A model generated the notes under the pieces. The model made no database searches and was not told the DNA's origin. It saw only the letters and a list, made by a program, of their open reading frames with translations. Positions 2,750 to 57,274 of a stretch of 57,274 nucleotides of DNA are shown here, one piece after another; within the stretch, counting starts at the first letter, position 1; the number at the start of each line of letters is the position of its first letter. The DNA is from Clostridiaceae bacterium (GTDB taxonomy: Bacteria > Bacillota > Clostridia > Oscillospirales > Acutalibacteraceae). Where the stretch lies: NCBI GenBank assembly GCA_016282855.1, contig JAEELT010000015.1:1-57274 (forward strand), written 5' to 3'. The position numbers and the translations under genes are program-made.

Positions 2750-3493
2750 ATGAGAAAACTACTTGCAGTTGTCTTAGCACTTGTTTTAGCCTTTTCATGT
2801 ACTGCAATAGCTTTTGCTGCGGATACAGTCGCTAACGATTCCTGGAGCTGCCCATATTGCAACCAGAAGTTTGAAGGTTACAAAAACGATCCAACTTCTC
2901 AGAAGTTGCACATGGACGCCTGCGACAAGAATCCATCCAACAAGACTGCAGACAACGACGAGATTTATACGTGTCCTGGTTGCGGAAAGAAGTACACTAA
3001 CCTTGCTGATTACAATGCGTGCCTTGCGAGTCACAACTACGGTGTTGACATGCATTACGATGACTACATCGGTAAGACCCTTCCGCAGCTCTTTGAGACA
3101 CTCATGACCTATTTTGTAGGAAGCCAGTCACAGACTCTCATCTTTGACATCCTTTATAAGATCTTCGATTATATTACGGCGTTTATCGATGCTCGAGTAG
3201 GCGGTGGAACAGGTGATGTTGAAGGTGTTAACGGCGCAGTAGCCGAGCTTGACAGTGCTCTTGCCGGTATAGATCTTTCGCTGCCTGAGTTTGACGGAGT
3301 AACAGATATTGTTACCTCCATCAAGCAGGAGATTAAAAGAATCTATGCCAGCGACATCGAGACATCTGTAGAAGAAACCGAAGCAGAAGCACTTCCGGAT
3401 ACCGGCTCCGCAGACGCAGGGATTGCGGTCTTCGCGGCTGTTTCCGTACTTGCTGCGGTTGCGTTTATTTGCACGAAAAAAAAGGCTGAATAA
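2750..3493 (+). CDS. LPXTG-anchored surface protein with two zinc-finger-like modules
   Basis: This is a 247-residue secreted protein of unknown function. Residues 1-24 form a signal peptide ending in AFA. Two zinc-finger-like modules follow: CPYC...H...C, then CPGC...C...H. After a middle region with amphipathic segments comes a C-terminal sorting signal: LPDTG, a hydrophobic stretch, and a KKKAE tail. That is the canonical substrate of a sortase, which would attach the protein to peptidoglycan. The start was chosen because AAAGGG at 2734-2739 is 10 bases from the ATG at 2750; the in-frame ATG at 2741 is only one base away. No sortase gene is in the window. Codon usage is more AT-rich than in its neighbours. 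Zinc binding is inferred from Cys/His spacing only. Confidence 0.8.
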   Translation: MRKLLAVVLALVLAFSCTAIAFAADTVANDSWSCPYCNQKFEGYKNDPTSQKLHMDACDKNPSNKTADNDEIYTCPGCGKKYTNLADYNACLASHNYGVDMHYDDYIGKTLPQLFETLMTYFVGSQSQTLIFDILYKIFDYITAFIDARVGGGTGDVEGVNGAVAELDSALAGIDLSLPEFDGVTDIVTSIKQEIKRIYASDIETSVEETEAEALPDTGSADAGIAVFAAVSVLAAVAFICTKKKAE

Positions 3494-42574: not shown

Positions 42575-44044
42575 ATGGAAAAGATTGCTGCCGAAGGGCT
42601 GAAATTTGTTGACGGCGAAGGCCGCGTGCGGCTTTTCAACGGCTTCAATATTGATGATAAGCTGCTGAACTGCGAGCGGTTCAGATATGAGCTTGATGAA
42701 GAATTTTTCAGAAAATACAGAGCTTACGGACTCAATTTCATCCGTCTTGCCGTAACCTGGCAAAATCTTGAGCCGCAGCCCGAAAAATATAACGAGAGCT
42801 ATCTCAGGTCAATTGACGGCATTTTTTCTCTTGCCGAAAAATACGGGGTATATATACTGCTTGATGTTCATCAGGATTTGTATTCGGGTTATGACGGCGA
42901 GGGTGTCGGTGACGGCGCTCCGATGTGGGCGACGCTCACGGACGGATACAAATCAAAAAAACCGCTGTTCGTATGGGCGGAGGGATACATTTTCGGCAAA
43001 TGGGTTCACCGCGCGTTTGACCATTTCTGGAACAATGACCCGGTTTTCGGCATGGGCCTGCAGGACAGATACGCAAGGCTCTGGCAGATGCTGGCGTCAC
43101 GCTACTGCGACAGCCCCGCCCTGTTCGGCTTCGACCTTATGAATGAGCCGTTCCCGGGCTCCGACGCAAAAAAGATGATGCTTCGGCTTGTGAGGAGCGT
43201 GCTTGCCGCTGTGCTTTTCAGCCGCAAAATCAAGCGCGGCAGAATTCTGAAATCTCTCATAACGCGCGATATGGCGGGCTTGCTCGACTCTGTGGGCGGC
43301 AACGCCGTGCGCGATATTATGAAGCATATAGATTCCCTTTCGGCTGAGTTTGACCTGAAAAAGTATTCGCCGTTTCTGAACAAGATTACCGCTGCGATAA
43401 GGGAAATAACAAAAAACGGTTTTATTATGATAGAGCAGGCGTATCTGTGCAACGGGGGAGTAAAGCAGAGCGTGCCGCCCATTACGGTAAACTCAGAGCG
43501 CGAAAAACTCCAGTGCTTCGGCCCCCACGCTTATGATATGACGGTTGACACTCCGCTTTACAAATACGCTAACGCCGACAGGGTTAAGGCGTTTTTCAGC
43601 GAAATGCGCCGCACTCAGCTTCGCCTTGATGTGCCCGTTGTGGTGGGCGAATGGGGCGGCTGCAGTGACAACAAAGACACATCCTGGTTCCCTCACGCGC
43701 TTGAGCTGCTTGATTTCTTTGATGAACAGCACTGGGGTCAGGCATACTGGGATTATCACGGCGACGATCTTGATTCCCCGCTGATGGGCCTGCTGTGCAG
43801 ACCGCATCCCGTGGCTGTAGCCGGGGAGATAGTCAGATACGGTTATGACAGGGAGAAAGAGATTTTTACGCTCCGCTTCACTTCGGACTCACCCGGAGAA
43901 AGCATTATTTATCTTCACAAAAAGTTTGAAATGTCCGGAGGAGTCGATTGCGAAACGCTCGAGCAGTATGACTCCGGTGCCGCTCTTGTAAAAATCAGAA
44001 CACAGGCGGGCGAGCACACAGTGGAAGCGCACTTTACAGATTGA
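42575..44044 (+). CDS. Glycoside hydrolase family 5, endoglycoceramidase-like
   Basis: This 489-residue enzyme has a GH5 barrel with Glu191 in DLMNEPFPG as acid/base and Glu359 in VVGEWGG as nucleophile. LLDVHQDLYSG and the long insertion before the acid/base resemble the endoglycoceramidase branch, which cleaves glycan from glycolipid. A C-terminal beta domain follows (about 415-489). There is no signal peptide, which is odd for a glycolipid-directed enzyme and suggests a cytoplasmic glycoside substrate such as a steryl or lipid glucoside taken up by the transporter encoded next. Confidence 0.87.
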   Translation: MEKIAAEGLKFVDGEGRVRLFNGFNIDDKLLNCERFRYELDEEFFRKYRAYGLNFIRLAVTWQNLEPQPEKYNESYLRSIDGIFSLAEKYGVYILLDVHQDLYSGYDGEGVGDGAPMWATLTDGYKSKKPLFVWAEGYIFGKWVHRAFDHFWNNDPVFGMGLQDRYARLWQMLASRYCDSPALFGFDLMNEPFPGSDAKKMMLRLVRSVLAAVLFSRKIKRGRILKSLITRDMAGLLDSVGGNAVRDIMKHIDSLSAEFDLKKYSPFLNKITAAIREITKNGFIMIEQAYLCNGGVKQSVPPITVNSEREKLQCFGPHAYDMTVDTPLYKYANADRVKAFFSEMRRTQLRLDVPVVVGEWGGCSDNKDTSWFPHALELLDFFDEQHWGQAYWDYHGDDLDSPLMGLLCRPHPVAVAGEIVRYGYDREKEIFTLRFTSDSPGESIIYLHKKFEMSGGVDCETLEQYDSGAALVKIRTQAGEHTVEAHFTD

Positions 44045-44058
44045 CGGAGGAACGGCGA

Positions 44059-46236
44059 ATGAATTATCTGAAGACAGGTGTTGAAAAGCTTAAGGAAGTC
44101 AAAACCTACTGGGTTTCTCCGCGCGAGGGCAACTATATGCCCTTCAGGGAGATATTTGCCTATTCCGTGGGCGGGTTTGGCGCCTATTCCATTTTCACAA
44201 TGGCTCAGGCACTCCTGCTTTCCACAACCAATGTCATCATAGGAAACACCATCGGCATTCAGCCGATGCACATGTATGTGATGTACCTGATCTCGGTTAT
44301 CACCAACATTCCTCTGACAATGGTCAGGGCAAATATGGTTGATAATGTTAAATATAAAGAGGGAAAGTACCGCCCCTACCTGCTGCGTATGGGAGTGCCC
44401 ACCGTTGCCGTGTCTATGCTCTTTGTGTTCACTCCATACACGAGAGTACCCTATATTGCGCGGTGTGTGCTTATTTTCATTTATAACTTCGGTCTGCAGT
44501 TTTTCTATAACTTCTTTTATGACGCTTACGAAAACCTGATTCACGTGCTTTCCCCCAATTCTCAGGAGCGCACGAATGTGACCGCAATCAAGAGCATGAT
44601 TTATTCGCTGTCTCCCACGGTCACCAATTTCATAACTCCGCTTATAGCAAATAAAGTTGCAGGCGGCAATATGTATGACCTGAGAGTTTACCGCTGGCTC
44701 TACCCCTTCATAGCGGTGGTCGGCGTTGCTCTTATAGTTCTTGTATATTCAAGGACGGAGGAAAAAATCGTTATTGCCCGCACTCATAAGATGAAGGTGA
44801 AATTCACCGACGCTCTGCGTGAGGTAGCAAAAAACAAATATTTCTGGATTATATCACTTGCGGGCTGGCTCGGCTTTCTTGAGACCTGCACCTATGTTAT
44901 ACTGCAGTGGCTGTATAACTACGCCCATCTCTGCACGGCGGAGCAATACGCGTTCATAACGCTCATAAGAGGCACCGCGTATTCATGGGGCATGATACTC
45001 GCGCCCTTTGCCATAAAGCGATGGGGCAAAAAGAAGGTGCTGATTGTTACCAACCTGTTCAATATTGCCTTCCTCGCCCTTGTTTATCCGCTTATGGGAT
45101 CAATCTGGACGGTGCTCCTTTGTATGTATATGAACTCCGTTGCGGATTCATTCATCCTTGTTCTCAACCCCGCTATTCAGGCGGATATAAGGGACTTCCA
45201 GCAGTATAAGAGCGGCGAGCGTATAGACGGTATGTTCGGCGCGGTGGCAATGATAGGCTCATTTGTCACAATGGCAACAAGCTCCGTGCTTCCGGCCGTC
45301 TATGAGAAATACGGCATCTTCAAAGGCAACGGCTACGAGAACATGTATGATGTGCTCTATGATACCGATGTGCTCTACAAGCTTGTCGGCGTGCTTGTGA
45401 TTCTTTCCGCTGTCGGCGCCGCGCTCAATGTTATTCCGTATTTCTTCTATGACCTTACCGAAACCAAGCAAAAGGCGATAATAAGAATTCTTAAAATCCG
45501 CGCGATGTTTGAGGACTACGGCAACGGAGTGCTCAAAGATGAGGATATGATTGAGACCATGGAGCTTATCCGCTCTTCTAAAGACAAAGCAGAAAACCCG
45601 CATATTGCGGATATAAAAGCGCTGAAGGCATCCGGGGCTGACAAGGCGGAGCTTAAGCGGGCGAAAAATGACAACGAGGAATACGAGATGTCCCTCGCCG
45701 TTGTGGATGAGCTTAAGCGATTCGGCACGCCCGAGGGCAAAGCAAGGCTCGAATGGGCAAAGAAAATCAGCGCCGGCGGCATAGAGGGCATTGTTTCGCT
45801 GACTCAGGAGGACCTTGAAAAAGCGAAGGCCATGCCTGCGGCAACTCACTCCGAGAGAGCGGCGCGCAAGCAGGCGGTTGCCGATGCGAAGCTCGGCCTG
45901 CGGTCAAAGAAGGCCTGCATGAAATATTATCCGGAGGGTATAAAGGCCTTTGATGTTGATGCCCTTCACGCCATGGAAAAGGAAGAAAACGAGCTTGATG
46001 AGAAAAAGGCGCAGATGCTCAGAGAAAAAGCCGGCAAGGATGAAATTGCCGCCGTCGCCGCAAGGCAGAAAGAGATCCTCGCCCGTATAAAGGAGCAGAC
46101 ACAGGAGTATCAGCGCTTTATTGAAAGCACAATGGTTTACTCCGAGGCGAAGAAATATATCACACAGGCAGAAAACTACGCAAGGTTCGGCGAGCTTGAC
46201 TCGCTCTACAGCGAAACTCTTGCGATTGAAGAGTAA
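44059..46236 (+). CDS. GPH-family sugar-cation symporter with a long C-terminal extension
   Basis: This 725-residue transporter has about twelve membrane helices in residues 1-470 with the major-facilitator/MelB-type layout (NMVDNVKYKEGKYRPYLL after the second helix resembles the GPH loop). About 250 charged residues follow, predicted helical or coiled-coil and cytoplasmic (ELDEKKAQML, AARQKEILARIKEQTQEYQ). Usual GPH proteins stop near 450-500 residues. The ATG at 44059 follows GGAGGA by 8 bases; an earlier in-frame TTG is inside the GH5 stop region. It likely imports the glycoside for the GH5 encoded before it. Confidence 0.88.
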   Translation: MNYLKTGVEKLKEVKTYWVSPREGNYMPFREIFAYSVGGFGAYSIFTMAQALLLSTTNVIIGNTIGIQPMHMYVMYLISVITNIPLTMVRANMVDNVKYKEGKYRPYLLRMGVPTVAVSMLFVFTPYTRVPYIARCVLIFIYNFGLQFFYNFFYDAYENLIHVLSPNSQERTNVTAIKSMIYSLSPTVTNFITPLIANKVAGGNMYDLRVYRWLYPFIAVVGVALIVLVYSRTEEKIVIARTHKMKVKFTDALREVAKNKYFWIISLAGWLGFLETCTYVILQWLYNYAHLCTAEQYAFITLIRGTAYSWGMILAPFAIKRWGKKKVLIVTNLFNIAFLALVYPLMGSIWTVLLCMYMNSVADSFILVLNPAIQADIRDFQQYKSGERIDGMFGAVAMIGSFVTMATSSVLPAVYEKYGIFKGNGYENMYDVLYDTDVLYKLVGVLVILSAVGAALNVIPYFFYDLTETKQKAIIRILKIRAMFEDYGNGVLKDEDMIETMELIRSSKDKAENPHIADIKALKASGADKAELKRAKNDNEEYEMSLAVVDELKRFGTPEGKARLEWAKKISAGGIEGIVSLTQEDLEKAKAMPAATHSERAARKQAVADAKLGLRSKKACMKYYPEGIKAFDVDALHAMEKEENELDEKKAQMLREKAGKDEIAAVAARQKEILARIKEQTQEYQRFIESTMVYSEAKKYITQAENYARFGELDSLYSETLAIEE

Positions 46237-46279
46237 CCGTCACGCGATATGATGTGAACATCACGAAAACGCATACAGC

Positions 46280-46320
46280 GCAGATTCATAAGACATTTCG
46301 TTTTATGAATCTGCTTTTTT
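46280..46320 (+). terminator. Rho-independent terminator of the transporter operon
   Basis: GCAGATTCATAA (46280-46291) pairs with TTATGAATCTGC (46303-46314), followed by six T residues. Confidence 0.93.
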
Positions 46321-46352
46321 ATTGTAAATTTTTATTTTTCCACGAAAAAATA

Positions 46353-46380
46353 TTGCGGTTTTTATTGTATATGTTATAAT
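46353..46380 (+). promoter_or_regulatory. Promoter of the giant surface-protein gene
   Basis: TTGCGG at 46353-46358 and TATAAT at 46375-46380 are 16 bases apart. A leader of about 100 bases with GC-rich repeats (46409-46440) follows, and GGAGG (46475-46479) precedes the ATG by 8 bases. Confidence 0.65.
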
Positions 46381-46487
46381 AAATTGGATTGATTTTATTT
46401 ATTGCTCTCGCGGGGCGGCTGTCTGCGTCGCCCGGGGGGCGTATTCTTTAATCAGGCCCTAGATTTTATGTAATGGAGGCAGTGAAA

Positions 46488-49400
46488 ATGAAAACAGGAA
46501 AAAAGGCGTTGTCGCTTATCCTCTCTCTTCTGCTTGTGCTCGGCACTGTTGCCGTGGGCGGTATGAGAGCGAAAGCCGACACATGGGGCGATTTTGAGTA
46601 CGGTACTTCTAGTCTTACCTGCGTTAATGCAATCACCGGCTACACGGGCGCGGGCGGCGCGGTTGTGATTCCCTCGGAGATTCAGGGTGAAACCATCAGA
46701 GGAATCGAGGATGATGCTTTTTCCCGTAATGACAGCATCACATCCGTTGTTATTCCGGACACCGTAGAGGAGATAGGAAGCAGTGCTTTCTTCAATTGTG
46801 ATAACCTTGAGAGCATCACCATCGGCCCGGGTCTGACTTCTGTCCGGGCTCAGGCGTTCGAAGGCTGCAACAAACTCTCCCGTGTCACCTTCACGGGCAC
46901 GCTCTCTCAGTGGGCGCAAATCGAATTTTGCGATGACCAGGCAAACCCGGTCAGGTTTTCACATAAGCTTATAATCGGCGGCAGGGAGCTGACCTCTGTC
47001 GATTCCGCAAGCCTCGCCGGGCTTACAAAGATTGGCGAAAATCAGTTTGTCTGGTCGGCGATTAAAAGCGCAGCCATCCCCTACGGCATTGAGATAATAG
47101 ATAAACACGCCTTCGAAGGCTGTGAAAAGCTTACCGCGGTTACTCTGCCGGACAGCGTTAGAGAAATAAATTTTCAGGCTTTTGGCGATTGCTCCGCACT
47201 CAGAACCGTAAACCTCGGCAGAGGTGTCACCTCAATCGATGCTGAAGCTTTTTCCGGCTGTGGCATTGAAAGCATATATATCCCCAAAAGCTTAACCTTA
47301 ATCAGAGATTTCACTTTTGCGAGCTGCGGCTCGCTCACCGATGTTTACTATGAGGGCACGGCCGATGAGTGGCGCGCGATATCCGTGGGCCACAGCAACG
47401 ATAATCTGCTCAACGCGAATATCCACTTTGAGGCCTCTTTTGACGGCATAGTTTGGAATGAAACGGACAGCCGCTATGAGATTTCGGATTATGCCGGCCT
47501 CAAGGCGTTTGCCGCGATAGTCAACGGCACTCATCCGGGTATTGTGCAGAATCAGTCTGCCTCTGCCGTGCTCACGGCGGATATTGACGCCTTCATCGCT
47601 CCGGCGAATGACTGGACGCCCATCGGGCTTGAGGGCAGCGCATACTCCGGCACCTTTGACGGCTGCGGCCATAAAATAACCGGCCTTGCGTTTGATGATT
47701 CCACCGCTTTTTACGCCGGCCTTTTCGGAGTTCTGAGCGGCGGCACGGTGAAAAACACCGGGGTTGAGAACAGCTCTTTTGAAGGCAAGTATGTCGGCGG
47801 CATAGTCGGAAAAATCGATAATAACGGCACCGTGACGAATTGCTACAATAACAGCTCGGTTTCCGGCAGCCTCCGTGGCGGCGGCATCGCGGGGTACATC
47901 AATGACGGCACCGTGCAGAGCTGTTACAATACGGGCGCTGTTTCGGGCCATGAAGATGCCGGCGGCATCACCGGAAGAATTGAAAATAACGGCACCGTGC
48001 AGAGCTGTTACAATACGGGCGCTGTTTCGGGCCAAGAAAATGCCGGCGGTCTGGTCGGCGCGGTTGAATACGGCACCTTGCAGAACTGCTACAATACGGG
48101 CGCTGTTTCGGGCCAAGAAAATGCCGGCGGCGTTGCCGGGCTGCTTCAGAGCGCCGGCGTCGTGAAATGCTGCTACTATGACGGTGGAATAGTAATAATG
48201 TCAGCTGCAGTCGGGAAAAACACCGGCGGAACAGCCATCTTTGACGAGGACAAAGGCACCTCGCTTATGACGGGCGAAGAAGCTTTTGGGGACAGCTCGG
48301 AAATATTGGATTTTGAATATGGTCCGAATGAAAGCAATCCCTGGATTCGCAGAGAGAATGACGAAGGCCTTTATTATTACTATCCGCATCTCAGGGGTTT
48401 CGCCTATGACACCACACAGTCCGAGGAGGACTGGCCCGCGCGCTTAATGGCATCGGGCGCGGTCGAGATTTCGACTTATGATGAGCTTGAGGCCTTTGCC
48501 TATGCGGTCAATTGCGGCCAAAACAGCAAATGCGCCGTGCTCACGGCGGATATATTAGCCGCAAATCATGTCTTGGATCCCATAGGTGAAGATGACAATG
48601 TCCCCTATCAGGGTACTTTTGACGGTCAGGGCCACACAATTTTCGTGCTCACAGGCGCTTCAGGCGGTGATTACGGCGGCCTTTTCGGCATTGTCGGCGG
48701 AAGCGGCAAGGTCAGGAATGTGGCAGTATCGGGCGGAAACATTCATGGCGATCTTTTTGCCGGCGGCATCGCGGGCTGCAATAACGGCTCAATAGTAAAC
48801 TGCAGCTACTCCGGCAGTGTAACTTCGGACGGCGGCGTCGCGGGAGGCATCGCGGGGAAAAACACCGATACTATATATAAATGTTACAACACCGGCAGTG
48901 TGCTGGCGGACGGCGGCGAGTCTGCCGGCGGCATCGCGGGCTGCAATGACGGCGAAGTGAAGTTCTGCTACAACACCGGCAGCGTAGAGTCGGGAGGTTA
49001 TTATGCCGGCGGCATTACCGGCGAAAACACCTACACAGTGGAGAACTGCTACAACACCGGCAGCGTTAAAGGTCTGAGGGCCGGAGGCATTTCCGGATAC
49101 TTTGACGGCGACAGTATCATCTCCTGTTACAGCGCAGGCAGCGTGACAACCTGGACCGACAACATACCGGCAGGAGGAGTTCTGGGCGAATACAGCAGCG
49201 GATTTATGAAAAACTGCTATTATGATTCCGCCAAAGCGGGTGTTAGCACAGCCATAGCTTCGGGAACCGCCCCTGCCAACTCAATAATCAATGTTAAGGC
49301 TCTCACCACCGCGCAGATGACCGAAGGCACATATACCTCGGGCGCGGTCACCGATATGCCCGGCTTCTCGTCAACAGACTGGCTTGTAAAAAAGAGCGAC

Positions 49401-52400
49401 GAAGAATATCTTTATTACCCGCATCTCAAGGGCTTTGCCTATGACACAAGCGGCGACACGGAAGACTGGCCGTCTGTCGCTGAGATAAAGACAAAAGATA
49501 TATATAACTATGATGATCTCAAGGATTTCGCCGATGCGGTAAACGCGGGCGAAACGAGCCTGCGCGCCTTTCTCTGGGCTGATATAAATGCCGAAGGGCA
49601 GACCTGGACCCCCATAGCCGCAGACAGCAACAAACCGTATGAGGGCACCTTTGACGGCCAGAGCCACATAATAACCGGCCTTGCGTTTAATGATTCCACC
49701 GCTTTTTACGCAGGCCTTTTCGGCGCGGTCGGCAGCAGCGGCAAGGTGAAGAATCTGGGCGTCACGAACGGCAGCATCAGCGGGCTGTCATTTATCGGCG
49801 GCATCGCCGGATTAAATGACGGCTTAATAGAAAACTGCTACAACACCTGCAGCATAACCGCAACCGATTCCGGAGCGGGCGGCATTGCAGGCTACAACAA
49901 CGAGGGCACAATAGTTCAATGCTACAACAGCGGCGTTATATCGTCAGCCACAAACCTGGCAGGCGGTATTGCCGGCGAAAACTACGGCAGCATAGATAAC
50001 TGCTACAATACGGGCGCTGTTTCGGGCCAAGAAAATGCCGGCGGCATCACCGGAAAAAATGACGGCAATTACGGCGGCGGCAAAATAGAAAACTGCTACA
50101 ACACCGCCGGTGTAACGGCGGTGCAGGACGATTGTGCCGGCGGCATTGCCGGCTATAATGATAAAGGCACAATAGTTCAATGCTACAACAGCGGCGTTAT
50201 ATCGTCAGCCACAAACCTGGCAGGCGGCATCGCCGGATTAAATGTCGGCACAATAGAAAACTGCTACAACACCGGGACCGTTACGGCGGCATACGGAGAA
50301 TCCGGCGGCATCGCCGGATTAAATGACGGCAATCTCGGCGGCGGCAAAATAGAAAACTGCTATAACACCGCCGGTGTAACGGCGGTGCAGGTCGATTGTG
50401 CCGGCGGCATTGCCGGAAACAGTAATAACGGCACAATAAAGAGATGTTACAACAAAGGCGCAATAACGGCACGTTCTATTGCCGGCGGCATTGCCGGAAC
50501 AATCCAAGAAGGCACAATAGAAAATTGCTACAACACCTGCAGCGTTACGGCGGAAGATGATTATGCCGGCGGCATTGCCGGAAGTGCTGCAGGCACAGTA
50601 GAAAAATGCTACAACACCGGCAGTATAACGGCAGGAGACAGTCATGCCGGCGGTATCGTAGGAAATGCAGATGAAAGCGCTGTGCTGAACTGCTATAACA
50701 CCGGCAGCGTTTCGGCGCAAAACAACAATGCTGGCGGTATCGTGGGAATAGCCCGTATGAGTGAGACAGAAGTGAAATACTGCTACAGCACCGGCAGCGT
50801 TACGGCAAACAGCAGCTGCGGCGCGATTATCGGAGTTAACTTCGGCACAGCTGAATACTGCTATTATGATTCCGCCAAAGTGGCGGCAAGCTCCGCAACA
50901 GGCGGAGGAAGCAGTGTAGACAATGACGGCAATTCCGCCGCTCTCACCACCGCGCAGATGACCGAAGGCACATATACCTCGGGCGCGGTCACCAACATGC
51001 CCGGCCTCTCGGAAGACAGCTGGCTTGCAAAAACGAGCGACGGTAATTACGCTTACTACCCGCATCTCAAGGGCTTCACCTATGACACCACACAGTCCTC
51101 GGAGGACTGGCCGCCTGCCAAACTGCTCAGGATGGAGATTGCGTCCTACAGCGACCTCAGGGCATTCGCCGACGCGGTAAACGCGGGCGATACGGGGCTC
51201 GGCGCCATCCTCACGGCGGATATAGACGCGAGCGCGTCAGATCCCTCAGCAGACGGCTATGACGCCGTAACCGGCGAATGGGCTCCGATAGGCTCATACT
51301 TCGACAGCATCGATTACACCGGAACCTTTGACGGCAACGGCCACACAATAACCGGGCTGGTTTACAATAAATCCACAGAGGGTTATATCGGCCTTTTCGG
51401 CTCTGTCGGCGCCGGCGGCACGGTGAAGAATCTGAGTCTCACGGGCGGCAGTATCAGCGGAAGCAACACTGTCGGCGGCATCGCCGGAACCAATGCCGGC
51501 ACAATAGAAAACTGCAGCTACACCGGCAGCGTAACGGCAAACGATAATAAAGCCGGCGGCATCGCGGGAAATAACAACGGCAGTGAAGGTAAAATAGTGA
51601 ACTGCAGCTTCAGCGGCACCGTAACGGCAGGCCGAAGCTATGCCGGCGGCATAGCGGCTGCGCTGTTTAACGGAGCCGAGGTCACAGGCTGCTTCAGCAC
51701 GGGCGCTGTTTCGGCAGATTCTATTGCCGGCGGCATTGCCGGAGGTATATTAAGCGGCACGGTGCAGAGATGCTACAATACAGGCAGTGTAATATGCACT
51801 GATGAAAACTCGGGTAACAGCGCCGGCGGCATCGCGGGATATCTGTCAAAAGGCAAAATCAAAAGCTGCTACAACACCGGCAGTGTCAAGGCGGTCAAAG
51901 ACGCCGGCGGCATTCTCGGCGTGATTGACGAAAGCAGCTCCGGTCAAGCTAAAGTTGAGGACTGCTACAATACCGGCAGCGTATCCGGGTTCGGCGAAAA
52001 CGGCAGCGGCACCAATCTCGGCGGCGTGCTGGGACGCTATGATAACGGCACTCTGATTGCATGTTACTATGACAAAAGCAGAATAACCTCGGCGGCTTCG
52101 GCTGTAGGCAATGATTATGGCTCAGGGATTGTGAATAATGTTTATGGCTATTCCACCCGTTATATGACCGGCGAACAAGCTTTTGCCGATCTTAGTGATT
52201 TCCAAGACAGCTCGGTCTGGCTCACCAAAGCCGGCGATTATACTGTTGACAGCGACACCGGCGAAATCACATACAATGTATATTACCCGCATCTCAAGGG
52301 CTTCAACCTTGACAACGGCGGCAATCAGATTAACGCGGCCGATATAGCTGCCGGAGACTGGCCCGCAAAGGCTGAGTATGCGGTGACGGTATCGTCGAAT

Positions 52401-55400
52401 ACATTCACATATAACGGTGGACATCAGAAACCGGCTTATACCGTAAAGTGCAACGGAGAGCCGGTTGGCGGCATCAACATCACTAAATACGAACGCTATA
52501 ACAGCGAAACAGGCAGTTATACCGATAATAGTTTTAATGTTCACGCGGGCAAGTATATCATGATCATATCCGGCGCGGGCATAGAGGACCTGCCGATAGA
52601 GTTTACAATAAACAAGCGCACGGCCACAATAGAAGTAAAAGAACAGACCTTAGCTTACAACGGCTCGCCTCAGGGCTTTGACGGCTCTGAGCTCACCTCG
52701 GAGCTTGATAAATATGTTACCGTTACGGGCTTTGCCACGCCCGACACGCTTACGGGCATAAAACTCAGCGGCAGCCAAACAGCCGCCGGCTCATACGCCG
52801 GCGCAATCACGGCAAGCGGCGCGGTTATTACCAACTCCCAATACGATGATGTGACCGCGGACTACGATATCACTTACACAGCAGGCACGCTGATTATCGG
52901 TGCGGGGACCCCCGCAATCACCGTAAGCGTTGCGGATATTGACCTGCTTGAGGCGGCTAAGGCAACCGTTACCCTGCCTTCGGACGCAACTGAGGGCTTC
53001 ACCCTGAGCATAGCCCTGCAGACGGGCACAGACCCCGGCACGGGCGAAGCAATCTGGACAGAGCTTGACTCCGTAAATCTGCCCGATTCCCCGGTAAGCG
53101 GAGAGGAGTTTGAAATCAGCGGCCTTGGCGCAGGCACATACAAGCTCACCGCGCATTACGCAGGCGACTCAAACTACGGCGCCTCAACCGCAGACGGAGT
53201 ATTCACCGTGAATATGATTTATTTCGCGGTAACCTTCGTTGACGAGGACGATACCGAGCTCAAGGCGGCAGAGAACTACGCCTACAACACTCCGGTTTCG
53301 GATATCGCTCAGCCCTCGGCTCCCACGAAGCAGTCAGACTCAACATATAACTACACCTTCGCAGGCTGGACTCCGGCTCTTGAACGCGTTACCCGTGAGA
53401 TTACATACAAAGCCACTTACACCGAAAGCCCCATAGAGTACCCCGTGGTGATTAAGGGCGTGCGCCTCACAACCCTCAATTACAGCGGCGACGGCTGGAG
53501 CTACTCCGGCACGCCCGAGCGCGGCACCCTCACCCTGACAAATGTATTGCTTGATACGGACGGTACCGATCTTGGCTCGCCTGTTAAGATACTCAACGGC
53601 TCCGAAGTGGATATTGTACTCGAAGGCGAAAATACAATCGCAGGCAATACGGCCAAGTCAAGCGCGGGCATCGAGGTTGAGGACGGCGCAACCGTAAACA
53701 TCTACGGCGACAGCGGCGCATCCCTGGAAGTCACCGGCGGCCTTTACGGCGCGGGCATCGGCGGCATAGGCTATGACAGCGCAGCCGCCGGTAACCCGAA
53801 GGCCGGCAATATAAACATATACAGCGGCATAATCAGAGCATACGGCGGCGGAACCAAAAATAAAAACGGCGGCGCGGCAATCGGCTCCGGCTATCACTCC
53901 TCGGCAAATGAGATAAACATCTCAGGCGGCGATATCACGGCCATAGGCGTATCCGGCGGCGCGGGCATCGGCTCCGGCTACGGCTCGAGCGGCGGGTCGG
54001 CAGCGGCAAAAGTCGGCTTCTACAGCGGCGGCAATATAACCATCAGCGGCGGCACCGTGCGCGCGGCAGCCATAAGCTATGAAGATCTGGGCACATTCAG
54101 CTTTGGCAGCTTCGATATTGACAGCCCCGAAACATATCCCTCCTTATCAAATGCAATGGCGGCAGGCATAGGCGGAGGCTACGGCGCCTCGGCCGGCACA
54201 ATAATCATTGAGGGCGATGCCGTTGTCACGGCAATCGGCACCTCAGGCGGCGCGGGCATCGGCTCCGGCAGGGGCACTTCAGCCGCAAACAAATTTGACA
54301 GCAATTACTACAACTGCAGCGTTACAATCAGAGACGATGCCAAAGTTACGGCTCTCGCCAAAGAAGATACAAGGAACAATCAAAAGCCGGTTTCCGGCGC
54401 GGGCATAGGCCTCGGAGCGGGCTGCACGCTTGAAGGCGAACCCAAGGGCAACATAGCGATAGCCGGCAATGCCAAAGTGAAAGCGGTTGCCGGAACTCAC
54501 GCGAACGGCGTGGGCACATCCTATGTTGTAGGCGGTGTCAGGGAAGACGTCGAAGGCAATCTCAGTTATCCCGCGAAAGCCCTGCTCACAAGCTTCGAAA
54601 TCGGCAGAGACACCGTTGTTGACGCGGTCTGCGTCGGCGGCGGAAGAACGGGCATTTACGAAGGTCCGAACAGCGATATATATATCCATTACGGCACCTA
54701 CCCGCAGTCCCTTGTGGACAGCACGCAGGAGGCGCTCATAAACAAGCTTGAGTCCAAGCTCACATCAAACTGCTGGAAGAGCTTCGGCTTCTACTCCGGC
54801 ACGGGCAATCAATTGGACGGCAAAATGGCGGCCGGCAGCTTCGGCCAGTACACCGACATCACGGTTGATTCCGTAAAATACAGAGGCGTTAAATTCTCCG
54901 GCTACAGACCGACCAACACGGGCTACGCCTCATCCGCGGCAAACTCAGTGCAGGATGAAAACGGCTTTGAGACAGACAAGATTTACTGGTTCAGATATGA
55001 GCCGGTGACATGGCATGTGCTCGACTCCGCAACAGGCCTCGTAATCTGCGACAGCGCGCTTGACGCGCAGGCGTTCAATAATTACTGCATCGAGCTCGGC
55101 GGCAGACACTACGGCGACGAGGGCGCGGACCCGCACTCGGCAGACGCAATAGATTACTCCGTCAGCAGCATAAAGCGCTGGCTCGCCGAAGATTTCGCGC
55201 AAACCGCCTTCTCAGACGAGCAGATAAACAATATAACGGTATCATCGGAGATTTCACTTTTCATCCCGGACAGAGATTTGCTCTCAAATGCGGACTACCG
55301 CTTCGGCAACGCAGGCGAAGTCGATGACACCAGAATCCGCGCAAGCTCCGATTACGCGAAAGCTATGGGCATCGACGACATCTCGGGCAAGTCAATATGG

Positions 55401-57274
55401 TGGACTGCTTCGGGAGAATGCGACCGGTTTGTTTACATCGTTGGTGAAACGGGCGCCATCGGCGGCTCCTTCCCGGTAAACGACTGCAGAGTGGGTGTTT
55501 GCCCCGCGATGTATATGAATGAGATAACCGACGAGCTCACGGGAGCTCCTCTCCAGAGAGACAACGATATAGAGCTGGAGGCAGAGGATATCCGCTACAC
55601 CGAAGATGAGGAAATCAACGCTACTCTTACATCTCCGGGAGCGACCGGCACAATGACGCTCTTAACAGACGGCGCCGAGTACACGGCCGATGTTGTTGAC
55701 GGCGTTGCGAAATTCACAGTCAGCGGCCTTGAAAGCGGCCATTATACCGTGGAAGCGCTGTATTCCGGCGACAGACAGAATAACCCCGCAAAGAGCACGC
55801 AAACCGTAACCTTCGATGTGGGCCAGGTGTATCCCGAAATCACAATCGAGCTTGATGACTACGAATACGGCGAAAGCAAGCAGGCGGCAATAACCCTGAG
55901 CGGCCCGCTTCCCTCAGCGCTGAATTCCGTAAAAGTATCCGTTGATGACGGCACCGAAACAGATGTTCAGCTTGATACCGACTTTGCGGGCTCTTTCACA
56001 ATGCCGCTTATTGACAAGGGCGACCACACAATCACGGTAAGAAGCACTTATGAAGACAGAAACATAACAGCAACAGATAAGAGCGAAGATTTCACCGTCA
56101 GCGCTGCTCCCGTTTCAATAGCCGTTACCGTGGACAACATAACATACGGCGGCACCGAGGCAATCGTTGTTACTGCTTCGGCTGACGGCGACTACGCTCT
56201 GACCGTTACCAAAGACGGCGAGCAGAGCGGCGCTTCATACACGGTTGCCGTGGCAAACGGCAGCGGCAGGGTGGAAGCGGAAGGCCTGAACGCGGGCCAA
56301 TACACCGCCGTGGTTAAAAACACAAACACCAATTACACCGGCGACGATGCAACGGGCTATTTCACCGTGGCAAAGAAGACGCCTTCAGTATCCGTCACGG
56401 CGCAGAATATCGCCTGCAACGAGCAGACGGCAATAACCGTTTCATCCGACTGCCCGGGCACCGTAACGCTTGCAATCGGCAGCGACATAAGCGAAGATAT
56501 AGTATTCACTCAGCAGGGCGATAAAGACGCCACCGCAGTCACCCTCGCGCCCGGCGATTACACGGTAACCGCGCATTACGCCGGCAGCGATAACTATAAT
56601 GATGCGGACGCTCAGAGCAGCTTCACCGTTGCGGCTCACAGCTGGAACGAGCCCGCCTGGAACTGGGATGATGTTGATCATCCCGTGTATTCGGCGGAAT
56701 GCTCCAAGTGCGGCGCGACGGCCTCCGGCACGGTTGATTCCGAAAAGGCAGATCCCGTACCGGCAACAGTTGAGGCAGAGGGCTACACAGATTACTCGGC
56801 TCAGGTTACTATTGACTCTCAGACATTCAGCGCAGACCACAGAGTAACCGACACCGGCTCAATGCTCGCCGCGAGAAAAGCCGCGTTTGAAGACTACAAA
56901 GAGCAAAAACAGGGCGAGGCAGACGCTTTGGCAAAAGAAGGTGACAGCGACGCAACAAAGGCGCTCATCACCGCGGCCAAGGAAGAAATCGGCTCTCTCA
57001 CCTATGACGAAACCAAGTCACTCGATGAGAACAAGGCTCTTGCAGACGCGATAACGGATGCTCTTCCCGCAAAACTTGCGGATCAGAGAGCGGCGGATAA
57101 GCTTGCCGCGGACAAAGCCGCGTTTGAAGACTACAAAGAGCAAAAACAGGGCGAGGCAGATACTTTGGCACAGGACGGTGACAGCGATGCAACGAAGGCG
57201 CTCATCACCGCCGCCAAGGAAGAAATCGGCTCTCTCACCTATGACGAAACCAAGTCACTTGACGAGAACAAAGC
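46488..57274 (+). CDS. Giant secreted modular surface protein (LRR, GLUG, Ig, DUF6273-like), 3'-truncated
   Basis: One frame of 3,595 codons is open from the ATG to the window edge; I read every codon and found no stop. Residues 1-30 are a signal peptide ending AKA. Domains, approximate residues: BspA-like leucine-rich repeats 55-318; four GLUG modules 325-655, 655-998, 1001-1543, 1545-1963; MBG/Ig-like domains 1965-2243; a B-repeat-like domain 2245-2315; a Gly-rich beta-helix with repeated GAGIGSG 2315-2735; a DUF6273-like domain (YGTYPQS, RYEPVTWHVL) 2735-3012; Ig domains 3025-3385; a CSKCG region near 3405; and a 79-residue helical repeat from 3465. The function is probably adhesion or matrix display. 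The end, and any anchor, lie beyond the window. Confidence 0.96.
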   Translation, partial: MKTGKKALSLILSLLLVLGTVAVGGMRAKADTWGDFEYGTSSLTCVNAITGYTGAGGAVVIPSEIQGETIRGIEDDAFSRNDSITSVVIPDTVEEIGSSAFFNCDNLESITIGPGLTSVRAQAFEGCNKLSRVTFTGTLSQWAQIEFCDDQANPVRFSHKLIIGGRELTSVDSASLAGLTKIGENQFVWSAIKSAAIPYGIEIIDKHAFEGCEKLTAVTLPDSVREINFQAFGDCSALRTVNLGRGVTSIDAEAFSGCGIESIYIPKSLTLIRDFTFASCGSLTDVYYEGTADEWRAISVGHSNDNLLNANIHFEASFDGIVWNETDSRYEISDYAGLKAFAAIVNGTHPGIVQNQSASAVLTADIDAFIAPANDWTPIGLEGSAYSGTFDGCGHKITGLAFDDSTAFYAGLFGVLSGGTVKNTGVENSSFEGKYVGGIVGKIDNNGTVTNCYNNSSVSGSLRGGGIAGYINDGTVQSCYNTGAVSGHEDAGGITGRIENNGTVQSCYNTGAVSGQENAGGLVGAVEYGTLQNCYNTGAVSGQENAGGVAGLLQSAGVVKCCYYDGGIVIMSAAVGKNTGGTAIFDEDKGTSLMTGEEAFGDSSEILDFEYGPNESNPWIRRENDEGLYYYYPHLRGFAYDTTQSEEDWPARLMASGAVEISTYDELEAFAYAVNCGQNSKCAVLTADILAANHVLDPIGEDDNVPYQGTFDGQGHTIFVLTGASGGDYGGLFGIVGGSGKVRNVAVSGGNIHGDLFAGGIAGCNNGSIVNCSYSGSVTSDGGVAGGIAGKNTDTIYKCYNTGSVLADGGESAGGIAGCNDGEVKFCYNTGSVESGGYYAGGITGENTYTVENCYNTGSVKGLRAGGISGYFDGDSIISCYSAGSVTTWTDNIPAGGVLGEYSSGFMKNCYYDSAKAGVSTAIASGTAPANSIINVKALTTAQMTEGTYTSGAVTDMPGFSSTDWLVKKSDEEYLYYPHLKGFAYDTSGDTEDWPSVAEIKTKDIYNYDDLKDFADAVNAGETSLRAFLWADINAEGQTWTPIAADSNKPYEGTFDGQSHIITGLAFNDSTAFYAGLFGAVGSSGKVKNLGVTNGSISGLSFIGGIAGLNDGLIENCYNTCSITATDSGAGGIAGYNNEGTIVQCYNSGVISSATNLAGGIAGENYGSIDNCYNTGAVSGQENAGGITGKNDGNYGGGKIENCYNTAGVTAVQDDCAGGIAGYNDKGTIVQCYNSGVISSATNLAGGIAGLNVGTIENCYNTGTVTAAYGESGGIAGLNDGNLGGGKIENCYNTAGVTAVQVDCAGGIAGNSNNGTIKRCYNKGAITARSIAGGIAGTIQEGTIENCYNTCSVTAEDDYAGGIAGSAAGTVEKCYNTGSITAGDSHAGGIVGNADESAVLNCYNTGSVSAQNNNAGGIVGIARMSETEVKYCYSTGSVTANSSCGAIIGVNFGTAEYCYYDSAKVAASSATGGGSSVDNDGNSAALTTAQMTEGTYTSGAVTNMPGLSEDSWLAKTSDGNYAYYPHLKGFTYDTTQSSEDWPPAKLLRMEIASYSDLRAFADAVNAGDTGLGAILTADIDASASDPSADGYDAVTGEWAPIGSYFDSIDYTGTFDGNGHTITGLVYNKSTEGYIGLFGSVGAGGTVKNLSLTGGSISGSNTVGGIAGTNAGTIENCSYTGSVTANDNKAGGIAGNNNGSEGKIVNCSFSGTVTAGRSYAGGIAAALFNGAEVTGCFSTGAVSADSIAGGIAGGILSGTVQRCYNTGSVICTDENSGNSAGGIAGYLSKGKIKSCYNTGSVKAVKDAGGILGVIDESSSGQAKVEDCYNTGSVSGFGENGSGTNLGGVLGRYDNGTLIACYYDKSRITSAASAVGNDYGSGIVNNVYGYSTRYMTGEQAFADLSDFQDSSVWLTKAGDYTVDSDTGEITYNVYYPHLKGFNLDNGGNQINAADIAAGDWPAKAEYAVTVSSNTFTYNGGHQKPAYTVKCNGEPVGGINITKYERYNSETGSYTDNSFNVHAGKYIMIISGAGIEDLPIEFTINKRTATIEVKEQTLAYNGSPQGFDGSELTSELDKYVTVTGFATPDTLTGIKLSGSQTAAGSYAGAITASGAVITNSQYDDVTADYDITYTAGTLIIGAGTPAITVSVADIDLLEAAKATVTLPSDATEGFTLSIALQTGTDPGTGEAIWTELDSVNLPDSPVSGEEFEISGLGAGTYKLTAHYAGDSNYGASTADGVFTVNMIYFAVTFVDEDDTELKAAENYAYNTPVSDIAQPSAPTKQSDSTYNYTFAGWTPALERVTREITYKATYTESPIEYPVVIKGVRLTTLNYSGDGWSYSGTPERGTLTLTNVLLDTDGTDLGSPVKILNGSEVDIVLEGENTIAGNTAKSSAGIEVEDGATVNIYGDSGASLEVTGGLYGAGIGGIGYDSAAAGNPKAGNINIYSGIIRAYGGGTKNKNGGAAIGSGYHSSANEINISGGDITAIGVSGGAGIGSGYGSSGGSAAAKVGFYSGGNITISGGTVRAAAISYEDLGTFSFGSFDIDSPETYPSLSNAMAAGIGGGYGASAGTIIIEGDAVVTAIGTSGGAGIGSGRGTSAANKFDSNYYNCSVTIRDDAKVTALAKEDTRNNQKPVSGAGIGLGAGCTLEGEPKGNIAIAGNAKVKAVAGTHANGVGTSYVVGGVREDVEGNLSYPAKALLTSFEIGRDTVVDAVCVGGGRTGIYEGPNSDIYIHYGTYPQSLVDSTQEALINKLESKLTSNCWKSFGFYSGTGNQLDGKMAAGSFGQYTDITVDSVKYRGVKFSGYRPTNTGYASSAANSVQDENGFETDKIYWFRYEPVTWHVLDSATGLVICDSALDAQAFNNYCIELGGRHYGDEGADPHSADAIDYSVSSIKRWLAEDFAQTAFSDEQINNITVSSEISLFIPDRDLLSNADYRFGNAGEVDDTRIRASSDYAKAMGIDDISGKSIWWTASGECDRFVYIVGETGAIGGSFPVNDCRVGVCPAMYMNEITDELTGAPLQRDNDIELEAEDIRYTEDEEINATLTSPGATGTMTLLTDGAEYTADVVDGVAKFTVSGLESGHYTVEALYSGDRQNNPAKSTQTVTFDVGQVYPEITIELDDYEYGESKQAAITLSGPLPSALNSVKVSVDDGTETDVQLDTDFAGSFTMPLIDKGDHTITVRSTYEDRNITATDKSEDFTVSAAPVSIAVTVDNITYGGTEAIVVTASADGDYALTVTKDGEQSGASYTVAVANGSGRVEAEGLNAGQYTAVVKNTNTNYTGDDATGYFTVAKKTPSVSVTAQNIACNEQTAITVSSDCPGTVTLAIGSDISEDIVFTQQGDKDATAVTLAPGDYTVTAHYAGSDNYNDADAQSSFTVAAHSWNEPAWNWDDVDHPVYSAECSKCGATASGTVDSEKADPVPATVEAEGYTDYSAQVTIDSQTFSADHRVTDTGSMLAARKAAFEDYKEQKQGEADALAKEGDSDATKALITAAKEEIGSLTYDETKSLDENKALADAITDALPAKLADQRAADKLAADKAAFEDYKEQKQGEADTLAQDGDSDATKALITAAKEEIGSLTYDETKSLDENK
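46650..47440 (+). repeat. BspA-like leucine-rich repeats (LRR_5)
   Basis: Units of about 23 residues with the pattern AFxxCxxLxxVxIPxxVxxIG recur: SAFFNCDNLESITI, HAFEGCEKLTAVTLP and EAFSGCGIESIYIP are examples. They form a solenoid, interrupted by two longer segments marked by W(A/R)xI. These repeats are within the giant gene. Confidence 0.9.
47460..52375 (+). repeat. Four GLUG-type beta-helix modules with about 27 GLUG units
   Basis: Each module opens with a strand like TFDGCGHKITGL...GLFG, continues with units of the type AGGIAGxxxGxIxNCYNTGSVTA, and closes with a CYYD line followed by YYPHL(K/R)GFxxD...DWP. I count about 4, 5, 12 and 6 units in the four modules. GLUG units are known from bacterial surface proteins and M26 peptidases. 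At the DNA level a unit built on ACAATACGGGCGCTGTTTCG occurs near-identically four times (about 47928, 48008, 48090, 50003). Confidence 0.93.
49905..50421 (+). repeat. Recent internal tandem duplication of about 261-264 bp
   Basis: The block from 49905 recurs from 50166. At least 60 bases beginning GGCACAATAGTTCAATGC are identical in both copies, and the later AATGACGGCAAT blocks (50058 and 50322) are nearly identical. Both spacings are multiples of three (87 and 88 codons), so the frame is kept. Confidence 0.9.
56880..57274 (+). repeat. Tandem 237-bp (79-residue) helical repeat, continuing past the edge
   Basis: GCCGCGTTTGAAGACTAC begins a unit at 56880 and again at 57117. Over the visible 158 bases the second copy differs at only a few positions. 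The encoded unit (AAFEDYKEQKQGEA..., then ALITAAKEEIGSLTYDETKS) is charged and helical. More copies probably lie to the right. Confidence 0.93.

Follow-up and report, generated by a model that had tools for sequence, protein, structure and literature searches.

An Ig-like domain followed by a short tail (together referred to here as the CTD) ends many exported proteins of an uncultured, ruminant-associated genus of Clostridia. We tentatively propose, at somewhat under even chances, that it is an undescribed, sortase-independent device anchoring proteins to the cell surface by their C-terminus, and that the giant and small exported proteins carrying it include cohesin-bearing and ubiquitin-displaying ones. 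The window analyzed, i.e., the whole stretch of DNA of 57,274 nucleotides, is the complete contig C13 of a 2.32-Mb genome (140 contigs, 85.6% complete), and a giant gene runs off its right-hand edge. What is new is the end of such proteins: their modules are already known and their size is normal.

Definition and distribution of the C-terminal domain

The CTD is common to four proteins of this genome (alignment A1). Among the 89 distinct copies present in the loci fetched up to then, 88 had a closed 3' end, and 87 of these 88, which are not independent since the loci were picked by profile match and some come from near-identical records, are located at the extreme C-terminus, the stop codon lying no more than 6 residues ahead of, or 31 residues beyond, the projected end of the model. 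The remaining copy is the first of a pair located in a single frame (L092).

The CTD is nearly restricted to the genus. The profile A3 (48 rows) matched 44 of the 45 genus genomes, including all 15 of good quality, at 0 to 42 places per genome (median 12; 2–42 in the positive ones); this genome has 21 such places, some of which are cut by contig ends. Profile A1 matched 24 of 40 relatives, corresponding to 24 of the 25 belonging to the genus (this genome included) and to none of the 15 from other families. Of 294 further genomes sampled across the order, 10 matched A3; in only one of these, G239, which belongs to the same family, does the match extend through the tail, the nine others ending by position 85 of 111. 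A scan of 84,980 named species, which detects close relatives only, yielded 37 CTD loci in nine assemblies named Clostridia, Clostridiaceae or Ruminococcaceae bacterium, and several of the assembly names indicate a goat omasum, reindeer or RUG (rumen) origin.

The CTD is covered by no model in Pfam (P0002, P0003, P0004, and P0006) or in NCBIfam (P0002–P0006); a BetaGal_gal-bd match within it reached only E 0.3. The many matches of its profile with the PDB are weak and Ig-like: the top row is a myosin-binding protein (2.2e-5 over 39 positions), and the best bacterial one, 9kvu (E 0.0012), ends before the tail. Among the papers listed in a literature search for such C-termini in rumen Clostridia, no title dealt with this CTD, and an amphipathic C-terminus was mentioned in none of them.

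The tail

The tail is 25–30 residues long, with a consensus of about V.VK..GFF.(R/K)LIAFF..LF. An earlier measure of amphipathicity used motif-selected segments; the later one, with controls, was made without any motif selection on the 73 distinct tails which scored at least 35 and had a closed 3' end, all others being left aside. Their maximal hydrophobic moment had a median of 0.577, versus 0.423 in shuffles, and the 95th percentile of the shuffles was exceeded by 24 of the 73 tails, versus 1 of the 34 other C-termini in the window. The tails are amphipathic on average, but taken one by one only those 24 stand out; the tail on contig C49, discussed below, has a moment of 0.66. The core motif occurs in 72/73 tails versus 1/34 controls and its stricter form in 49/73 versus 0/34, these motifs having been derived from the same tails. 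Since the mean hydrophobicity is modest (0.24 in the motif-selected segments), the tail is likelier to form a peripheral than a transmembrane helix. The very last residue is Cys in 28 and Gln in 12 of the 73 distinct tails.

A second type of tail, CP..G..H followed by an amphipathic GFF.KL..FFH helix, was also observed. It is C-terminal in this genome (L012, i.e., C107, and L156, i.e., C37), in G015 (L141) and in G018 (L146); in L141 it follows a repeat which resembles, by eye, the helical repeat family of the window gene. Five weak matches were obtained in other genera, four of which are not C-terminal tails: they contain an internal stop (L151 and L153) or lie at the start (L152) or in the middle (L155) of a frame. 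The fifth (L154) is located in a 132-aa frame, 9 residues short of its end.

Proteins carrying the CTD

A Sec-type start was detected heuristically in 42 of the 47 CTD rows closed at both ends, versus 12 of the 34 window genes, the start being sought over 60 residues in the former (leader included) and over 30 in the latter; some of the 12 scoring window frames are membrane proteins. The five remaining rows (L057, L114, L065, the frame of which contains N letters, and L092, counted twice) look like gene pieces. Sec starts were checked in part of the 21 CTD matches of this genome. Sec export and the common CTD of these proteins are well supported.

In the 42 complete CTD proteins passing the start heuristic (25 Pfam families shown), no family occurs in more than 17 proteins, so that the CTD itself is what they have in common. 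Their cargo includes GLUG (10 proteins), Big_3_5 (8), DUF6273 (7), LRR_5 (6), subtilase (2), ubiquitin (2), and CHAP (1) domains. The 2,572-aa frame L138:788-8503 (G021, minus strand), which combines cohesins, dockerins and Big_3 repeats with the CTD tail, looks scaffoldin-like. Giant size is normal in this genus: closed frames with a CTD tail reach 5,478 aa in G040, 4,963 aa in G023 (LRR_5, PKD, fn3, and DUF6273), and 3,322 aa in G017 (LRR_5 and Big_2). A single giant chain is thus a habit of the genus, and the order of modules in the window is one outcome.

One paralogue of the window gene, P0002 (L010:2909-7897, contig C66, minus strand), consists of a signal peptide, a ubiquitin, GLUG repeats and the same CTD. 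The ubiquitin directly follows the signal peptide, shares 70 of its 76 residues with PDB chain 8q7r and ends in RLRGG. The ubiquitin family (PF00240) was found in 7 of 31 genus genomes and in 3 of 245 genomes of the order, this one included. In the nine distinct copies compared and in a tenth (L157), the ubiquitin always starts right behind the signal peptide; three of the nine have a GG end. In the secreted ubiquitins of L142 (G042), L147 (G044), and L148 (G009), DUF6273-type sequence follows rather than GLUG, and the RLRGG end is absent. The terminal Gly is absent from BfUbb of B. fragilis (PMC5705921). No paper dealing with GLUG together with bacterial ubiquitin was found among those searched.

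The giant gene of the window

The sequence-only reading of the window had described a frame without any stop up to the window edge, and translation confirmed this: 3,595 stop-free codons run from the ATG at 46488 (46488-57274, plus strand), and the window stops there because contig C13 does. So long an open frame cannot be due to chance. The mechanically determined ORF begins further upstream, at the ATG at 46473; by eye, the GGAGG at 46475-46479 suits the ribosome site of the ATG at 46488. Since an intrinsic terminator-like site lies behind the upstream genes, which encode a GH5 enzyme and an MFS_2 transporter (three such sites were found in 46180-46560, versus 0.4 expected from shuffles), the giant gene probably begins a separate transcription unit.

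The MFS gene (44041-46236) has relatives in 44 of the 45 genus genomes. In seven relatives (L160, L162, L163, L164, L166, L170, and L171), it shows 72-85% identity and no CTD gene beside it, and for this reason the giant gene looks like a lineage-specific accessory insertion.

The modules (Table 1) belong to known families. The signal peptide is of the start type seen in other CTD proteins of the genus. Two of the models that had been suggested for checking, PF13306 and PF07581, scored above their cut-offs: LRR_5 with E 3.5e-41 (140.5 bits vs. 27.7; best stretch 180-291), as required for BspA-like LRR_5 surface proteins, and Glug with E 4e-40 across the protein (133.9 bits vs. 20.5), which establishes the GLUG motif. 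Local alignments between the four GLUG blocks give 36-48% identity, and a regular expression counts 23 units in them. The match between the GLUG region and PDB 3n6z (E 2.2e-10), which its depositors labelled a putative IgA1 protease, points to a solved relative of the GLUG repeats and gives no sign of protease activity.

Table 1. Features of the giant gene, its upstream region and its probable continuation.
Feature	Position	Strand	Basis or remark
Intrinsic terminator-like site	46280..46314	+	15-pair stem then T-run, after the GH5/MFS_2 genes
Sec signal peptide, aa 1-30, ..MRAKA/D cleavage	46488..46577	+	Sequence; cleavage site by eye
BspA-type leucine-rich repeats (LRR_5), aa 33-300	46584..47387	+	PF13306; outer borders by eye
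GLUG beta-helix block 1, aa 332-655	47481..48452	+	PF07581 and block comparison; borders by eye
GLUG beta-helix block 2, aa 661-1000	48468..49487	+	PF07581 and block comparison
GLUG beta-helix block 3, aa 1005-1546, longest	49500..51125	+	PF07581; regular expression counts 11 units
GLUG beta-helix block 4, aa 1551-1956	51138..52355	+	PF07581 and block comparison
MBG-like beta domains, aa 1962-2160, weak	52371..52967	+	PF18676, E 0.022, 15.8 vs. 25 bits, under cut-off
Ig-like Big_3_5 and List_Bact-type repeat, aa 2161-2313	52968..53426	+	PF16640, PF09479
Gly-rich beta-helix, aa 2316-2730	53433..54677	+	PF18889 (Beta_helix_3), below cut-off
DUF6273 domain, aa 2733-3022	54684..55553	+	P0004 homology; alignment A7
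Ig-like Big_3_5 domain series, aa 3027-3385	55566..56642	+	PF16640, three stretches in the whole protein, best 3031-3108
First copy of the helical tandem repeat and part of the second	56883..57272	+	DNA matches to C49
Five more helical copies on C49	L009:2-1150		Probable continuation of the window gene

The piece spanning aa 2161-2313 matched PF16640 (2.3e-07, 31.7 vs. 35.5 bits) and PF09479 (0.016), both under the cut-off; over the whole protein, Big_3_5 reached E 9.6e-16. The Gly-rich block matched Beta_helix_3 with E 0.0011 (19.7 bits, cut-off 27), had strong matches at 47-60% identity in six further genus genomes and, as a sequence profile, gave no match with the PDB. The DUF6273 piece alone scored 16.0 bits with PF19789 (cut-off 23.5); it is 36% identical over approximately 290 aa (E 1e-55) to the paralogue P0004, which itself matches PF19789 at 2.7e-21. 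Against the PDB, the DUF6273 profile gave a single match (E 0.6), and that of the helical stalk, the repeat unit of which is 75-79 aa long, gave short partial matches with designed helical repeats. Contig C13 breaks off within this tandem array.

The idea that separate genes were fused by misassembly was rejected at the joint between the Gly-rich helix and DUF6273, as the same joint is present in G013:C13, which was assembled independently (47% identity over 679 residues of the query), and is made unlikely overall by the intact giant frames in other genomes. The earlier description of one giant modular exported protein, with the modules it named and in the order it gave, was right. That order had been called unusual, which may hold for its exact form; it does not apply to the kind of protein, since the genus is rich in large mosaics.

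The probable 3' end of the gene

Among the 24 matches listed in its own genome (40 of 62 candidates scored), the helical-repeat DNA was found only on C13 and C49, between which it gave four overlapping DNA matches with 78-89% identity. An 80-base exact repeat, present at the end of C13 and inside the first repeat of C49, accounts for the contig break. Contig C49 opens inside a helical repeat, in the same kind of frame as the end of C13; the helical copies, of which there are seven over both contigs (one being cut), are followed by two beta repeats, an Ig-like domain, the short amphipathic tail and a stop codon ending at L009:1846. The paralogue P0005 (C42) likewise has a helical repeat, several beta repeats of the C49 kind and the CTD, in that order. 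From this identity of the repeats and the order of the modules we infer that the C13 frame very probably continues into C49. The 3,595 and 614 residues joined in this way would probably give a whole protein of no fewer than about 4,200 aa.

Downstream of the C49 end lies a thiN-like gene, relatives of which occur in 40 of the 45 genus genomes. No frame matching the CTD profile was picked in 12 fetched regions of relatives with the MFS or thiN-like flank, L171 being cut by a contig end approximately 2.5 kb past the MFS gene and the thiN-like gene of L161 being among those that the frame picking missed. These CTD-less flanks again suggest that the gene is accessory, and they say nothing for or against the join. 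That C49 carries the end of a different gene, the true end of the giant being elsewhere, is improbable: the assembly gap, the presence in this genome of further CTD ends truncated on the 5' side (C75 and C109) and the lack of support from the flanks leave room for it, but among the DNA matches listed only C49 shares the helical repeat with C13, and its module order agrees with that of P0005.

An LPXTG, SLH, dockerin or T9SS-like end had been envisaged for the protein; the likely end on C49 is instead the Ig-like domain with its amphipathic tail. Neither inspection by eye nor the anchor models (P0003) revealed an LPXTG motif with a transmembrane helix and a basic tail at the C49 end, and no match was obtained in P0001 or P0003 with SLH domains or the dockerin repeat (Pfam) or with the T9SS CTD models (Pfam and NCBIfam), all of which, as far as the C-terminal part is concerned, depends on the join. 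The C49 piece had no match in plasmid records. Its one Pfam match over the cut-off, SegE_GIY-YIG (26.9 bits, cut-off 25), includes no single stretch that passes and stems from the helical repeats; like LTI65_PGEED, which is below the cut-off, it was taken to be a repeat-composition match.

Possible role of the CTD

On balance, we favor the view that the giant is a Sec-exported, stalked surface protein tethered by its CTD, with its modules forming the outer, ligand-binding part. Once exported by the Sec system, the protein would expose its leucine-rich repeats, GLUG and Gly-rich beta-helices, DUF6273 and Ig domains as a long outer part binding ligands; the helical repeats would form a stalk, which could span the wall; and the Ig-like domain and 25-30-residue amphipathic helix of the CTD would serve as a non-covalent tether to the cytoplasmic membrane, on its outer face, or to a wall polymer associated with it. 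Up to 20 further proteins of this genome might be tethered by the same CTD. We infer from these features that the proteins are retained at the surface, that the membrane is the partner and that adhesion is the role. The cohesins of L138 make most sense if that protein is held at the cell, which supports a tether. Since sortase-family genes are present in 29 of 31 genomes (7 matches here) and the genus has a separate LPXTG-like end made up of PHTGG, a hydrophobic stretch and a basic terminus (G018, L166), the CTD would add a second surface route to that of sortase. The hold of a lone peripheral helix on a 4,200-aa protein may be weak, and the Cys at the end of 28 of the 73 tails is not accounted for by the tether.

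The CTD might otherwise be a recognition signal for dedicated processing or transpeptidation, being cut off while the protein is attached covalently or released. Being C-terminal, conserved and present on many different cargos per genome, it shows the pattern of a sorting signal, its Ig-like fold resembles the layout of T9SS CTDs, and sortase-family genes are plentiful. This reading is nevertheless rather unlikely: inspection by eye of the last 45 residues of the 89 copies revealed nothing like an LPXTG motif, the LPXTG-like end of the genus is found apart from the CTD, and T9SS requires an outer membrane. Less likely still, the protein would be secreted into an extracellular matrix, the tail serving for self-assembly instead of cell anchoring; mosaics of beta-helix and Ig domains do suit matrix proteins, and GLUG and Big_3_5 are among the cargo (10 and 8 of the 42 proteins), but the cohesin-bearing L138 and the enzyme-like subtilase and CHAP cargo better suit a tether to the cell.

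If the CTD does act as an anchor, it would assign a place to dozens of otherwise unlabelled large proteins of this lineage and would allow the surface proteome of the genus to be recognized by a simple sequence tag. Clostridia would then have a further means of holding proteins at the surface without sortase, SLH domains or wall-binding repeats.

Comparison with known systems

The BspA-like gut surface proteins with LRR_5 and GLUG/List_Bact likewise unite LRR_5, Glug and Big_3_5 modules with List_Bact-type repeats in a single protein. The window protein differs from these mosaics in its size, in its CTD end, and in having four blocks of GLUG, a Gly-rich helix, DUF6273 and a helical stalk in one chain. 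The NCBIfam model of the LRR adhesin HupY/LrrG matched through the leucine-rich repeats only (43.7 bits, cut-off 1250).

The C-terminal domain of T9SS, a secretion system of Bacteroidota, is also Ig-like and borne by many cargos; the present CTD differs in belonging to another lineage's proteins, with which no T9SS model matched. MinD/FtsA-type proteins end in a similarly short amphipathic membrane-targeting helix with aromatic and basic residues, which acts inside the cell, whereas the proteins described here begin with a Sec-type start.

Another taxon-restricted module borne by many proteins is CBM37 of Ruminococcus albus. Its description reports 64 CBM37 proteins in strain 7, leucine-rich repeats in nearly half of those without catalytic domains, and a proposed role as coordinator of an extracellular complex (PMC4300822). 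CBM37, however, is a carbohydrate-binding module.

Each gut methanogen genome encodes over 40 adhesin-like proteins that are rich in repeats; their domains include a beta-helical type and archaeal Big domains, and terminal amphipathic helices have been proposed to be membrane anchors in them (PMC11532034). Most of these archaeal proteins have transmembrane helices and some have amphipathic ends (PMC11532034), whereas the Ig-like domain and the tail described here form one conserved unit.
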